Shown: in pieces, positions 4,786-10,427 of the stretch
Layout of the letters: the number at the start of each line of letters is the position of its first letter
How positions within the stretch are numbered: position 1 is the first letter of the stretch
The notes under the pieces: model-generated
Database searches by the model: none
Told to the model about the DNA's origin: nothing
Seen by the model: the letters and a program-made list of their open reading frames with translations, nothing else
Position numbers and translations under genes: made by a program
From: Marinobacterium lutimaris
GTDB taxonomy: Bacteria > Pseudomonadota > Gammaproteobacteria > Pseudomonadales > Balneatricaceae
Assembly (NCBI RefSeq): GCF_900108065.1
Contig: NZ_FNVQ01000001.1
Coordinates: 1,612,001 to 1,676,000, forward strand
Direction: 5' to 3'
Length of the DNA: 64,000 nucleotides

Positions 4786-4861
4786 TGGTGGAGCCTAGCG
4801 GGATCGAACCGCTGACCTGTTCGCTGCCAGCGAACCGCTCTCCCAGCTGAGCTAAGGCCCC
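4786..4861 (-). tRNA. tRNA-Ala (GGC), probable attachment site
   Basis: 76-nt cloverleaf read on the minus strand: acceptor GGGGCCT/AGGCTCC, D-arm AGCTCAGCTGGGAGAGC, anticodon loop CTGGCAG with anticodon GGC, T-loop GGTTCGATCCC, and encoded CCA. Its 3' end abuts the integrase gene, so it is the likely prophage attachment site. The anticodon stem differs from the second tRNA-Ala at 5053, while the acceptor and T-arm are identical. Confidence 0.97.
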
Positions 4862-4879
4862 ACTTCAGGGTGTTGTGAG

Positions 4880-4955
4880 TGGCGTCCCATAGGGGGTTCG
4901 AACCCCTGTTACCGCCGTGAAAGGGCGGTGTCCTAGACCACTAGACGAATGGGAC
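4880..4955 (-). tRNA. tRNA-Glu (TTC)
   Basis: 76-nt cloverleaf on the minus strand with acceptor GTCCCAT/ATGGGAC, anticodon loop CTTTCAC (anticodon TTC), T-arm GGGGTTCGAACCCC and encoded CCA. It lies between two tRNA-Ala genes and downstream of the glutamyl-tRNA synthetase gene. Confidence 0.97.
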
Positions 4956-4984
4956 ATAATCTCACAAATACCAGACGCACCGGG

Positions 4985-5036
4985 TTTTTGTCCCGAGTTT
5001 TTGTCCAGTTTTTGTCCGGTTAGTAAATCCTAACCG
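4985..5036. repeat. three TTTTTGTCC repeats and an inverted repeat between tRNAs
   Basis: TTTTTGTCC occurs at 4985, 4998 and 5009 (spacings 13 and 11 bp). It is followed by the inverted repeat CGGTTAG/CTAACCG at 5017-5036. On the tRNA strand these lie just 3' of the second tRNA-Ala. Short direct repeats beside a tRNA 3' end resemble integrase arm sites, so this may be an old attachment scar (inference). Confidence 0.55.
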
Positions 5037-5052
5037 TATTGCCCTACGGAAT

Positions 5053-5128
5053 TGGTGGAGCCTAGCGGGATCGAACCGCTGACCTCAACACTGCCAGTGT
5101 TGCGCTCTCCCAGCTGAGCTAAGGCCCC
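5053..5128 (-). tRNA. tRNA-Ala (GGC), first gene of the tRNA operon
   Basis: 76-nt cloverleaf on the minus strand, anticodon loop CTGGCAG (GGC), identical acceptor and T-arm to the tRNA-Ala at 4786 but a different anticodon stem (CAACA/TGTTG). First gene downstream of the TTGACA promoter. Confidence 0.97.
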
Positions 5129-5314: not shown

Positions 5315-6802
5315 TTAACCGAGTTCCAGAGCGCGGTACTCTTTTTCCCAGCTCTTGGTCTGCTTCTTGGACGGGCCGCCAATGGTATCCAGCGCGAAAC
5401 GCACACGGGCACGGCTCATATCCGGACCCAGAATCGCCATGGCATCGACCACCGATACGGTCTGCGCCGTACCAGAGATCGCCACAAACAGCGGGAACAG
5501 GAAGTCACGGATCTTGAAGTCCAGCGCTTCGCCCAGCGTTTTCAGGCCATTAAACAGCTGATCGCGATCCCAGTGACGCTGTTCATCCAGGTACCAGGAA
5601 GCGAACTGAAGAATGCGACGCACGTCTTCGATAGTCAGCTTCTTGTGCTCGAAGCTCGCTTCGCTCACCGGCATCATGCCCGACAGGAAGAACCCGGCCA
5701 GCGGCGCGATATCGGCGAATTTCTCTACGCGCGGCTGAATCAGCGGGATAATCTGCATCAGGTACTCGGGGTTGAGCGCCCACTGCTGCACCCGAGCCGC
5801 AAACTGCTCCGGATTCAGCTCTTCACGGATCCACAGACCGTTAAGCCAGCTGAGTTTTTCCTGATCGAAGACCGGACCACCCAGGGAGACACGCTGAATA
5901 TCGAATGCTGCGAACATCTCTTCGCGGCTGAATTTCTCGCGCTCGTCCGGCATTGACCAGCCCATGCGACCGAGGTAGTTGAGCACCGCTTCAGCCATGT
6001 AGCCCATACGCTGGTAGTAAAGAATGCTGGTCGGGTTCTTACGCTTGGACAGTTTGGTCTTGTCCGGGTTACGCAGCAACGGCATGTGGCAGAGCTTCGG
6101 CATATCCCAACCGAAGTATTCATACAGCAGCTTGTGCTTGGGAGCGGAGTTGATCCACTCTTCACCGCGGATCACATGGCTGATCTTCATCAGGTGATCA
6201 TCAACCACGTTGGCCAGGTGATAGGTCGGCATGCCATCGGACTTGAGCAGGATCTGCGCATCAACCTGCGCCCAGTCCAGCTCCATGGTGCCACGCAGCA
6301 TGTCGTCGACTTCGCAGACACCTTCGGTGGGCACTTTCATGCGCACTACGTAAGGCTCGCCAGCCGCCATGCGGCGCTCTGCTTCTTCGGCCGGTAGTTC
6401 CAGGTCTTCCTGTTTCAGCGCGCGCTGACGCCCGGCTTCTTTATTCGCTTCGCGCAGCTCGTTCAGCTCATCGGCAGTGCGGAAGCAGAGGAACGCCTTG
6501 CCCTCTTCCACCAGGCGCATCGCAAAGTCTTTATACATATCTTTGCGTTCGCTCTGGCGATACGGGCCGTGCTCGCCGCCCACATCCGGGCCTTCATCCC
6601 ATTCCAGACCGAGCCAGCGCAGTGAATCCAGAATCGCCTTTTCCGACTCCGGGGTACTGCGGGTCTGATCGGTATCCTCGATACGCAGGATGAACTGGCC
6701 ACCGTGCTGACGGGCAAAAGCCAGGTTGAAGAGGGCAATGTAAGCGGTGCCAACGTGCGGATCGCCGGTGGGTGACGGCGCGATACGAGTGCGAACGGTC
6801 AT
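5315..6802 (-). CDS. gltX: glutamyl-tRNA synthetase
   Basis: Class I aminoacyl-tRNA synthetase that charges tRNA-Glu in the cytoplasm. The 495-residue product has the HIGH-type signature [12 protein letters not shown] (residues 9-20) and the KMSKS-type loop KLSKR (250-254). The Rossmann catalytic domain is followed by the anticodon-binding helical domain. Length and motifs are typical of bacterial GluRS. The start is the ATG behind CAGGA. The tRNA-Glu gene lies just downstream on the same strand, as in pseudomonads. Confidence 0.97.
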
Positions 6803-6867: not shown

Positions 6868-7032
6868 ATCGGGGCGCCTTATCCCGACAGAGATTCTCCG
6901 GCGGACACAAGCACCACTTCGGTGCACTAACGCACTCTTATGGATGAAAAGCTGGTGATTTTTTAGCTAGCTGCCAGGTCCAAGCCAACGAATAAAATGG
7001 CGAAACCGCATAATCACAGGGTTTTCATAAGT

Positions 7033-7048
7033 TGGCACGGCATATGCT
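7033..7048 (+). promoter_or_regulatory. sigma-54 (RpoN) promoter
   Basis: TTGGCACGGCATATGCT contains the invariant GG (7034-7035) and GC (7046-7047) separated by exactly ten bases, within a good TGGCAC-N5-TTGC-like match. The predicted start is near 7059. No protein gene follows on this strand. A small RNA ending in a strong terminator does. Confidence 0.7.
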
Positions 7049-7058
7049 TTATAGAATT

Positions 7059-7161
7059 ACAGGTTGGTAAGCCAGACGCCTATGTCTCGACCAACCAGTT
7101 TTTCGCACACGAGGGGCACTGCGAATCCGCCGCATCCGATAGGATAGCGGCGTTTTTTTTT
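7059..7161 (+). ncRNA. candidate sigma-54-dependent small RNA
   Basis: A roughly 100-nt transcript is predicted between the sigma-54 promoter and a strong intrinsic terminator. The 5' hairpin pairs GGTTGGT (7062-7068) with ACCAACC (7090-7096), with an inner AGAC/GTCT stem. A single-stranded stretch with TTTTT and GAGGGG follows, then the terminator hairpin CGCCGCATCC/GGAT-GCGGCG and nine T's (7128-7161). No reading frame with a ribosome-binding site is present. It is not recognisable as a known sRNA family such as Qrr or CrcZ. The class is inferred from promoter plus terminator architecture. Confidence 0.6.
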
Positions 7162-7220
7162 GCCTGTCTGCCAGGCGCCGCCAGCATCCGGGCGCCCCCC
7201 CCCATGCCCTTACGCGCACA

Positions 7221-7248
7221 TAAAAACGGGCCTCCGAAGAGACCCGTT
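7221..7248 (-). terminator. terminator of the TAXI operon
   Basis: On the minus strand, AACGGGTCTC, a TTCG tetraloop and GAGGCCCGTT form a 10-bp stem with one wobble pair, followed by TTTTTAT. It lies 52 bp past the TAXI receptor stop. Confidence 0.85.
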
Positions 7249-7300
7249 CACCAGGCAGCAGAACCAGACCCTGCTGCCCTGCCCTTACCTGCCGCCCCTA

Positions 7301-8248
7301 TTACTGGGCCAGCGCTCCTTCATTGAGCGGAAAGTAGGACCAGTCAGACTGACCTTCAGCTTCGATATAATCGTAGACACTGGCCCAGTTCGGGTTGGTG
7401 TCCGGATCGTCCGCCAGGTCAGCGACGTTGGCGTAAATGCAGGTCGCCAGGTTGATCATTGGCTCGTTGCGGCTTTCCTTACGAAAGGATTTACCCAGCA
7501 GCAGCGCTCTAATACCCACGGTCGGGATAGAGCGCACCTTGCCGTCGATCTGATAGTTCACTGTCTGGTTGCTGTAAAACGCCGCCGTCTGTGAGATGGC
7601 GTTGTAGTCGAGGCTAGCCAGTGTCCATTTACCGGAATCCAGGTACTCGGTGACCGGCCCGTAAGGTGCTCCACCGACCAGCACAATCGGCTTGCTGGTG
7701 TCGTTTACGTTTTTGCTGGTCTCGACCACATTGAGGTTCAGACCAAAGAAGTAACCCAGCGCCTCGGCAGAAACAATGGAACCGCCCCAGGAACCCACCG
7801 ACTGGTTCTTCAGCATCGACAGCTGGAACTTGGAAGGCTGTTCAGAATCGGAGCCGAACAGCATGCTCCACATATTTTTGTCACCACTTTCGGGCTCATA
7901 GCCCTTGGGCACGAGCAGGTGCACAGATTCCTCGTGCAGGCCGGTAATGACCTTGAGGCGGTTGCGGTTCACGCGCTGCGGCGAGCGCTTGGCGTTGTAG
8001 TGCAGCACATCTTCCTGAACCATGGCGATGGAGTAGTCTTTATTCGTCATACCCAGCAGGTTGGTCACCGACCCGCCGGTTTCCATGACGTTAAGATCAG
8101 CTCCAATCTCACCGGCGCAATAGTTCTTGATATCCTGTCCCATGGCGTAATAGTTGCCACTAGTACCACCGGTACCCATGTTTAGAGCATGGGCTGACAC
8201 TGGGGCAACGACGGCAGCCAAGGTCACTGCGGCCAACAAAGATCTCAT
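7301..8248 (-). CDS. TAXI-family TRAP transporter solute receptor, periplasmic
   Basis: Exported binding protein of 315 residues with a signal peptide (hydrophobic residues 3-18, cleavage near VSAHA). The mature start has the family signature GTGGTSGNYYAMG (about residues 25-37). TAXI proteins deliver small organic anions to a fused TRAP permease. No permease gene is adjacent here: the upstream genes encode a small membrane protein and a coiled-coil membrane protein. The ligand is unknown. The start is preceded by AAGGAA, and a TTCG-loop terminator follows the stop. It could work with a distant permease or act in sensing. Confidence 0.8.
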   Translation of the reverse strand: MRSLLAAVTLAAVVAPVSAHALNMGTGGTSGNYYAMGQDIKNYCAGEIGADLNVMETGGSVTNLLGMTNKDYSIAMVQEDVLHYNAKRSPQRVNRNRLKVITGLHEESVHLLVPKGYEPESGDKNMWSMLFGSDSEQPSKFQLSMLKNQSVGSWGGSIVSAEALGYFFGLNLNVVETSKNVNDTSKPIVLVGGAPYGPVTEYLDSGKWTLASLDYNAISQTAAFYSNQTVNYQIDGKVRSIPTVGIRALLLGKSFRKESRNEPMINLATCIYANVADLADDPDTNPNWASVYDYIEAEGQSDWSYFPLNEGALAQ

Positions 8249-8452: not shown

Positions 8453-9214
8453 TTAATCGTTATCAATTTCAAAATCGGACACGGAGTTCTCAATGCTGAC
8501 CATCGCCTCCTGGAAGTCCTGTTCAATGGCCGCAAAGGCTTCCATGCCGAGCATTTCATCCAGCGTGCCGGTATTGGATTTGGCAAAAGCCATGGCATCA
8601 CCGACGATGTCCGAGAACTCGGCCATCTCTTTGTATTCCTCAACCTTCTTGGTCAGCGCCTTATGGGCGGCACCGGCGCGGTCCACATTGCCGCAGACCA
8701 TCTCGTAGGCGCTCTCGACACGCTCAGCCATCTGCACCTTGGTGGCATAGCTGGAAGAGTCCTGATCGGACTCGTTGAGACGGGCCTTGATCTTCTCGAC
8801 ATAGCCACCCATTTTGTTACGTGCCTCACGGGCCGCATCCAGGCGGTTACGCGAATCAATCACCAAGTTGGTGAGGGTTTCGATTTTGTGGGTTTTCGCC
8901 TCTTCGATCATGTTGGCGATCACACGGTTCTGCATCTTCTGCTTGATATGCTTGTCGTTCATCTTCAGATAACGAATCGCATAAAACATAAATGCCAGCC
9001 CACCGAACCCCACCAGCAGCGCGAAGGTTCCTGCGATAATCTGAAACGCCATCAGACCAACAAGACCGACCCCAACCAGGCAGAACGCCAGGAAGCCCAG
9101 GTTTCTCGCCCTGTCCGTGATCTTTACACCCTGCTCATGCTTAATCTGGGCGATACGGTCGTTACTCTGCTCGACCAGGGCGCCGATGTTTAAAACCGGA
9201 TTAGTGGTAGGCAA
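8453..9214 (-). CDS. membrane-anchored coiled-coil protein of unknown function
   Basis: 253 residues from a TTG start chosen because GGAGG lies 5 bases upstream. The frame stays open further upstream, but that part has no ribosome-binding site and reads poorly. Two adjacent transmembrane segments (about residues 37-75) are followed by a long, charged helical region with coiled-coil character and an acidic tail ending FEIDND. It heads the operon with the small membrane protein and the TAXI receptor. No enzymatic motif is visible. It may scaffold or regulate an envelope complex, which is speculation. Confidence 0.7.
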   Translation of the reverse strand: MPTTNPVLNIGALVEQSNDRIAQIKHEQGVKITDRARNLGFLAFCLVGVGLVGLMAFQIIAGTFALLVGFGGLAFMFYAIRYLKMNDKHIKQKMQNRVIANMIEEAKTHKIETLTNLVIDSRNRLDAAREARNKMGGYVEKIKARLNESDQDSSSYATKVQMAERVESAYEMVCGNVDRAGAAHKALTKKVEEYKEMAEFSDIVGDAMAFAKSNTGTLDEMLGMEAFAAIEQDFQEAMVSIENSVSDFEIDND

Positions 9215-9340
9215 AACATCCTCCGTGATTTTCGTTGTTAATAATTTTTCTGCTTCCGACCCACTCTTGGGCCGAACGGATAAATTCTTTTTTTTGCACG
9301 CGGTTCTTCTCCGCACACTCAGCCATAACGCTGTCGCCAC

Positions 9341-9820: not shown

Positions 9821-10195
9821 TCAGCTGAGGAAGTTATCCCAGATGATTCCGCCCCAGACCACAGCGACAATAAACAGCGCAAAGAACACCGCTGCCGAGC
9901 CCAGATCCTTGGCCAACCCGGCCAGCGCATGAAACTCGGTGCCGGCACGGTCCACTATCGCCTCGATCGCCGTATTCAGCAGCTCCATCACCAGAACCAG
10001 CAGCAGTGACGCGATCATCACCCCCCACTGAAATCCCGTATTCGCTACAAAAAAGGAGGCCGGCGCCATCAGGGCCACGATCCAGCTCTCATAACGAAAT
10101 GCGGGCTCACTGATATAAGCCGCACGTATCCCTTTCATCGAATAGCGGGTTGCATGGTAGAAACGGGCAAATCCGGTGGCTTTTGTAACGATCAC
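9821..10195 (-). CDS. dgkA: diacylglycerol kinase
   Basis: Small integral membrane enzyme that phosphorylates diacylglycerol to phosphatidate, recycling lipid released by envelope glycan synthesis. The GTG at 10195 was chosen because GAGG precedes it and it gives 124 residues, the normal family length. An upstream ATG would add a non-homologous extension. Three transmembrane segments are visible, with the catalytic signature ELLNTAIEAIVDR (about residues 71-83) before the third. The gene stands alone. Confidence 0.93.
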   Translation of the reverse strand: MIVTKATGFARFYHATRYSMKGIRAAYISEPAFRYESWIVALMAPASFFVANTGFQWGVMIASLLLVLVMELLNTAIEAIVDRAGTEFHALAGLAKDLGSAAVFFALFIVAVVWGGIIWDNFLS

Positions 10196-10427
10196 TCTAC
10201 TACCTCGGCGTTCTGATAACCTGGTTATAAATTGGGTCGTATCCTGCCAGAGACAAGCTGGCAAACGAATAGTCTGACTTCAGCAGAACCGCTTATACTT
10301 CATTTTGCTTAAGAGAAGTTTAAAACCTGAGTCAAAGACGGCATTTTCGGACGACTGCGCGGCCTTCACAGCTCAGAATTTCACCCAGCGTTTTTGTATT
10401 AAATCCGGCGTCAGCCCAGGAGCCCAC

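Follow-up and report, generated by a model that had tools for sequence, protein, structure and literature searches.

Does the intergenic region beside gltX in Marinobacterium lutimaris encode a small RNA and, if so, what would switch it on and how might it act? The region lies within a stretch of 64,000 nucleotides (hereafter the window; contig NZ_FNVQ01000001.1, positions 1,612,001–1,676,000) of a 5.57-Mb genome. A sequence-only reading had proposed a near-consensus sigma-54 promoter and a very strong intrinsic terminator with no reading frame between them, together with a two-helix fold at the 5′ end of the RNA, and had named conservation in relatives, covariation in the stems and a search of Rfam as ways to check the proposal. 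To our knowledge, stand-alone sRNAs with a link to NtrC and sigma-54 are few. The features that we assign to the locus are:

4786–5128: tRNA-Ala, tRNA-Glu and tRNA-Ala, on the left side of the sRNA together with gltX
5315–6802, minus strand: gltX, the divergent neighbour of the sRNA (TIGR00464, 433 bits, over the cut-off)
6911–6925: NtrC-type enhancer dyad GCAC-CACTTCG-GTGC, with its midpoint about 141 bp upstream of the predicted start; perfect at eight of eight defined positions
7033–7048, plus strand: sigma-54 −24/−12 promoter TGGCACGGCATATGCT; nine of 16 positions identical in all 18 loci
7059–7161, plus strand: predicted sRNA of about 103 nt, its start inferred from the −12 element; 116.1 bits with covariance model R1 in its own genome, a score to be read knowing that this sequence is among those used to build the model
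7062–7096, plus strand: 5′ hairpin, stem GGTTGGT/ACCAACC (arms 7062–7068 and 7090–7096); sequence variable, stem mostly kept in relatives
7074–7077 and 7084–7087, plus strand: inner helix AGAC/GTCT, in the predicted minimum-energy fold of the window RNA
7102–7125, plus strand: core UUCGCA-CACGAGGGGCAC-UGCGAA, a putative seed and possible hairpin
7128–7161, plus strand: intrinsic terminator, a GC stem with a bulge followed by nine T; in relatives, five of ten pairs have both partners changed
7301–8248, minus strand: gene for a TAXI-type TRAP binding protein, right of the sRNA

Distribution of the element

A first blastn search of 57 genomes gave matches at E up to 0.01 in 12, three of them (G032, G037 and G044) short and weak; the element was present in its own genome and in six of the seven other Marinobacterium genomes, and in part in two Nitrincola genomes. 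The covariance model R1, built from these nine sequences, matched 23 of 116 family genomes at E up to 0.01, 18 of them strongly (65.4–124.9 bits), nine of these 18 being the model-building sequences themselves. The strong matches come from seven of the eight Marinobacterium genomes (relatives including M. litorale, G001; M. lacunae, G002; M. mangrovicola, G003; M. zhoushanense, G005; and M. ramblicola, G006) and from 11 Nitrincola genomes (the genus of N. schmidtii, G016, and N. lacisaponensis, G029), the latter a count without a denominator, as more Nitrincola may be included in the 73 family genomes that gave no match. Among 390 genomes of the order, R1 matched 26, those beyond the two genera at 24–31 bits only and with no further strong match, and all 30 weak loci from the family and order searches lacked both GAGGGGCAC and a strict box.

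An exact scan for CGCANNCGAGGGGCACTGCG through 84,980 species (GTDB), each represented by a single genome, returned 24 stretches, 16 of which carry both box and terminator and belong to Marinobacterium, Nitrincola and one MAG labelled Oceanospirillales; in the other eight the match was not flanked by a box and a terminator, and these were set aside as chance. A loose box-plus-core pattern matched 49 of the 390 genomes against about 14 in a reversed control, and its matches outside Marinobacterium and Nitrincola were judged to be chance from the matched letters only, in some cases just the first 80. No match was found in viral contigs or in phages.

An Rfam scan of the window returned the three tRNAs only, the sRNA having no family at the gathering threshold, and ten loci, six of them sRNA loci, likewise gave no hit at that threshold. 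A separate search at E up to 10 gave two chance hits. Rfam is not exhaustive here, since the CrcZ-like locus L020 also gave no hit. This locus is a separate gene in N. schmidtii (G016:C10:17657-20680, at about 1505–1850), where a sigma-54 box and A-rich repeats lie between the genes for a sigma-54 activator and a poly(A) polymerase, that is, in the order cbrB-crcZ-pcnB. Searches of the open-licence PMC literature returned no description of a gltX-side sRNA of Marinobacterium or Nitrincola. As far as these searches go, the element is an undescribed RNA family of these two genera; two of the checks named beforehand thus came out in its favour, with element, box and terminator conserved together beside gltX and no Rfam family at threshold.

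A probable sigma-54 promoter with upstream NtrC-type sites

The near-consensus sigma-54 promoter element is borne out: TGGCACGGCATATGCT (7033–7048) differs at one position from TGGCACGNNNNTTGCW. Taken alone, a sigma-54 match in the window is no more than chance, as three matches at up to two mismatches were observed in the 64 kb against 14.4 expected from shuffles; the box is significant because relatives keep it in all 18 homologous loci. A TGGCAY-N6-TGCW box occurs once per locus, 72–82 nt before the core CGAGGGGCACTGCGA, and no second strict box was found on either strand of any of the 18 loci (2.2–3.1 kb each).

Upstream of the box stand NtrC-type sites, likely activator sites, that were absent from the sequence-only reading. 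Dyads of the NtrC motif, GCAC-N7-GTGC, were found at up to one mismatch 80–140 bp before the box in 18 of 18 loci and were perfect in nine; the window locus has no second dyad of this grade in that interval. They start −90 to −92, −111/−112, −122/−123 or −132 from the box, mostly about 10, 21 or 31 bp apart, a spacing that would place the sites on the same helical face. All nine perfect dyads lie in this zone, with none in the remaining 53.8 kb of locus sequence, and at up to one mismatch there are 24 in the 1.1 kb of the zone against 25 in the 53.8 kb elsewhere, a contrast that overstates independence because the −140 to −80 zone was chosen after the sites had been seen and the loci are related.

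The glnA gene served as a control. Its NtrC sites in E. coli are spaced at about −108 and −140. In the two genera, all 12 glnA genomes carry a sigma-54 box, and in 11 a dyad lies −78 to −80 from the box, −109 to −111 from it, or at both positions (L193 has none there), the two being 30–31 bp apart in the four genomes with both; further dyads occur at −15 in seven of the 12 and at −192 to −195 in four. NtrC itself scored above the curated cut-off in all 18 genomes. The upstream dyads point to nitrogen limitation as the signal, and from the conserved sites and the glnA control we infer that the sRNA is likely activated by NtrC and sigma-54 under this condition.

Predicted structure and conserved core

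The predicted sRNAs are 93–107 nt in length across the 18 loci. The 103-nt product of the window has a minimum-energy fold of −38.4 kcal/mol (z −3.76; none of 200 shuffles as stable), laid out as a 5′ hairpin, a core region and the terminator. The 5′ fold claimed earlier stood in part: both GGTTGGT/ACCAACC and AGAC/GTCT appear in this predicted fold, but the inner helix recurs in only two of the 18 predicted folds, those of its own genome and of M. mangrovicola (L025). The 5′ stem shows changes on both sides in five of six modelled pairs, with 90.9% of cells paired, and the sequence of the 5′ domain differs strongly between Nitrincola species.

The strong intrinsic terminator was found as claimed, with the bulged stem CGCCGCATCC-GATA-GGAT-A-GCGGCG at 7128–7152 and the nine T at 7153–7161, and a GC stem followed by a T run is present in all 18 loci. 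A simple terminator scanner listed none in the window, this one included, perhaps because the stem is bulged. In the alignment of the loci, 94.1% of cells were paired and 38 cells were changed on both sides, against a shuffled mean of 10.3; four of five covariation measures lay above all 500 shuffles and the fifth was reached by three of the 500, values to be read with the fact that an alignment fitted to the covariance model leans towards structure by construction. The 5′ stem and the terminator covary over the 18 loci, as the third of the checks had sought. Architecture of the gene, conservation and covariation can all be read directly from the sequences.

The earlier reading did not mention a near-invariant core, which lies outside both stems named there. 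Its central stretch, UCGCA-YNCGAGGGGCAC-UGCGA, shows almost no variation across about 20 nt, and GAGGGGCACTGCG is present in 18 of 18 loci. Two folds compete for the core, UUUUUCG/CGAGGGG and UCGCA/UGCGA. The core hairpin CGCA/UGCG forms part of the minimum-energy fold of 13 of the 18 RNAs and is absent from those of the window RNA (L026), L021, L025, L031 and L034; in the window's own RNA, 7098–7105 pairs with 7110–7117 instead. Helix 2 varies at its closing pair only (UA in seven, UG in six, AU in one, unpaired in four), and covariation therefore hardly tests it; the lone A-U closing pair is that of L036, a sequence identical to N. alkalilacustris L084.

Genomic neighbourhood

The start of gltX lies 200–251 bp before the sigma-54 box, with gltX divergent, in all 18 sRNA loci. 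Downstream of the sRNA the genes change: a convergent dgkA in five loci (directly after the sRNA in five Marinobacterium relatives), a convergent TAXI gene in two, a photolyase gene on the same strand in five and other genes in six. Pfam was run on dgkA of L023, the photolyase of L029 and the TAXI gene of the window, the other neighbours being assigned by likeness of protein ends. The window TAXI product, at 59.9 bits, does not reach the NCBIfam cut-off (84.35) but is over the Pfam cut-off for NMT1_3. Between the sRNA and dgkA (9821–10264) the window holds the TAXI gene and a frame at 8453–9340, the latter without a Pfam match. At the other side of the locus, a phage-type integrase gene (PF00589, 3593–4783) adjoins the tRNA-Ala/Glu/Ala cluster, which suggests an integrated element to its left.

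The GltX N-terminus was searched in 30 genomes, 29 outside Marinobacterium and Nitrincola plus G007, the Marinobacterium genome without the sRNA; 28 matched, all outside the two genera, and G007, too, was negative. The sRNA core was found in the 1.5 kb upstream of gltX in none of these 28 sister-genus genomes, which yielded one bare GGGGCAC, 960 bp away. Two genomes of genus g15 (G021 and G033; loci L157 and L163) carry a box and an NtrC-type dyad before a gene in the gltX-divergent slot, the product of which in G033 (L163) contains a receiver and an ANTAR domain, and in G024 (g3, L142) a box, a one-mismatch dyad and a terminator-like leader precede the gene for an NMT1_2 binding protein, presumably NrtA-like. 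With box and dyad before ANTAR and NMT1_2 genes, the slot in some sister genera serves apparent nitrogen genes. A nirB nitrite reductase gene (TIGR02374 over the cut-off, partial protein) on the minus strand of L002, upstream of 1426 (G000:C18:2173917), likewise has a sigma-54 box, along with a terminator-like leader that may be an attenuator.

Search for targets

None of the target tests (11-mer, upstream of ATG, sucA, gltX and glnA) gave anything convincing. The 11-mer complement CAGTGCCCCTC occurs at 15 places outside the sRNA in eight Marinobacterium genomes, with no shared antisense site. Four of these places (G003, G004, G005 and G006) fall in one gene, which we take to be oxyR, and were rejected: the shared open frame is on the other strand, which gives mRNA and sRNA the same sense, and the two cannot pair at this site. 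A site in a single genome, M. lacunae (G002), lies about 50 nt before an ATG. Matches to a 7-mer upstream of ATG outnumbered the reversed control in eight of eight genomes (36 against 19 in G000), a control that also removes real gene starts, and no recurring gene was seen by eye among the matches listed for the eight genomes.

In sucA of 14 genomes the best core-pairing windows fell at five different offsets, and near the start two to 39 of 40 shuffled cores paired as well (L177 being the best, at two of 40). As many as five to 40 of 40 shuffles equalled the core in pairing with gltX (18 loci), and two to 40 of 40 did so with glnA (12 loci). A conserved leader (GGTGCANCCT ... CAGGGTGA) was noted by eye within about 70 bp before the sucA start in the 14 sequences (L168–L181); Rfam found nothing in the one that was searched, L174.

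Proposed mode of action and alternatives

We consider it likely that the locus encodes a trans-acting sRNA, activated by NtrC and sigma-54 and made under nitrogen limitation, with the G-rich core as its seed. It would be a free-standing gene for an RNA of about 93–107 nt, found in Marinobacterium and Nitrincola. Under nitrogen shortage, phosphorylated NtrC would bind the dyads about 110–150 bp before the start and activate sigma-54 polymerase at the −24/−12 box. The RNA would comprise the 5′ hairpin, the near-invariant core with GAGGGGCA and the terminator, whose long U tail is of the kind bound by Hfq, and the G-rich core would pair with a target mRNA. Transcription, nitrogen control, Hfq binding and pairing are here what we infer from these conserved parts.

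The seeds of sRNAs are typically conserved while their flanks vary, and for this reason we take pairing through the core as a likelier mechanism than capture of a protein. The RNA could nevertheless be an NtrC-activated decoy, the core of which captures an RNA-binding regulator, for example a nitrate-gene antiterminator of the ANTAR type or some other protein. Such a role would suit a core near-invariant over about 20 nt, more than a short seed needs, and the ANTAR response regulator or NMT1_2 binding protein found behind a sigma-54 box in the gltX-divergent slot of some related genera, as well as the lack of an mRNA target in the searches run. CrcZ captures Hfq/Crc in this way. Each gltX-side RNA, however, has the core only once, in contrast to the several A-rich motifs of CrcZ described in passages of PMC8395346, and neither a GGA loop nor A-rich repeats were seen in it by eye; we regard a decoy as rather doubtful. 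A narrower version appears less probable again, namely a new nitrogen-starvation RNA with a near-invariant core that titrates a regulator able to bind RNA, perhaps a nitrate-gene antiterminator of the ANTAR type, the RNA having taken over an NtrC/sigma-54 promoter slot used by such genes in sister genera.

That the element is instead the 5′ leader or attenuator of a downstream gene is very unlikely, and largely refuted by the changing neighbours: the sRNA is not a leader because the genes downstream differ between loci, and the nearest listed plausible gene is convergent in nine of 18 (five dgkA, two TAXI, two other), even though a same-strand photolyase follows 59–85 nt past the terminator in five Nitrincola loci (Pfam-tested in L029 only) and the nirB and NMT1_2 genes do carry sigma-54 boxes with terminator-like leaders. 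The claim that no reading frame intervenes was nearly right: a mechanically called 109-codon frame (6997–7326) crosses the sRNA, which also contains a TTG frame of 27 codons. The latter would fit a short peptide gene or dual-function RNA, but the small frames vary in start and sequence between loci, the L028 sRNA has none of eight codons or more, and stems 1 and 3 have changed in a compensatory way; we hold this to be more improbable still. Least credible of all is a chance pairing of box and stem-loop with nothing transcribed: sigma-54 matches of such level are expected in 64 kb, but all 18 loci, from two genera, share these parts and their order.

Comparison with known systems

The preferred reading, an NtrC/sigma-54-activated trans-acting sRNA, has its closest counterparts in other lineages. 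NrsZ of Pseudomonas aeruginosa is, in the passages of PMC8395346 that describe it, likewise intergenic and controlled by sigma-54 and NtrB/C under nitrogen limitation, as proposed here, but is an RNA of about 226 nt, processed, and encoded between ntrC and PA5126, whereas the gltX-side sRNA has a predicted length of about 100 nt. All 18 loci of the latter have the conserved −24/−12 element, upstream dyads and a terminator with differing neighbours, and all lie beside gltX rather than between ntrC and the next gene; in two Marinobacterium loci, the 1.5 kb downstream of ntrC contained no sigma-54 box and no simple terminator.

GlnZ of Enterobacteriaceae is a non-coding member of the NtrC/sigma-54 regulon whose short seed is conserved, as we propose for the gltX-side sRNA; as described in parts of PMC9731577, it derives from the glnA 3′ UTR, has the seed UUGCCGUGGAAA and mainly regulates sucA. 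The gltX-side sRNA differs in having its own gene, beside gltX on contig C18 with glnA of the same genome on C10, and a different core, the pairing of which with sucA in 14 genomes was mostly not above that of shuffled cores. NfiR and NfiS of Pseudomonas stutzeri are nitrogen-linked ncRNAs that, by the relevant passages of PMC6606865, act on nitrogenase expression, NtrC binding the nfiR promoter and nfiS being sigma-54-dependent, with nfiR reduced but not abolished without rpoN. CrcZ is likewise a free-standing RNA driven by sigma-54, but unlike the gltX-side sRNA it lies between cbrB and pcnB and has several A-rich motifs, again following parts of PMC8395346.

In function, the gltX-side sRNA would work like NrsZ or GlnZ, a likeness drawn by setting it beside the descriptions of NrsZ, GlnZ, NfiR and NfiS. 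Its promoter, enhancer, structure and near-invariant core are mapped well enough for direct testing, and its presence suggests that the response to nitrogen starvation has gained a non-coding arm separately in different lineages.
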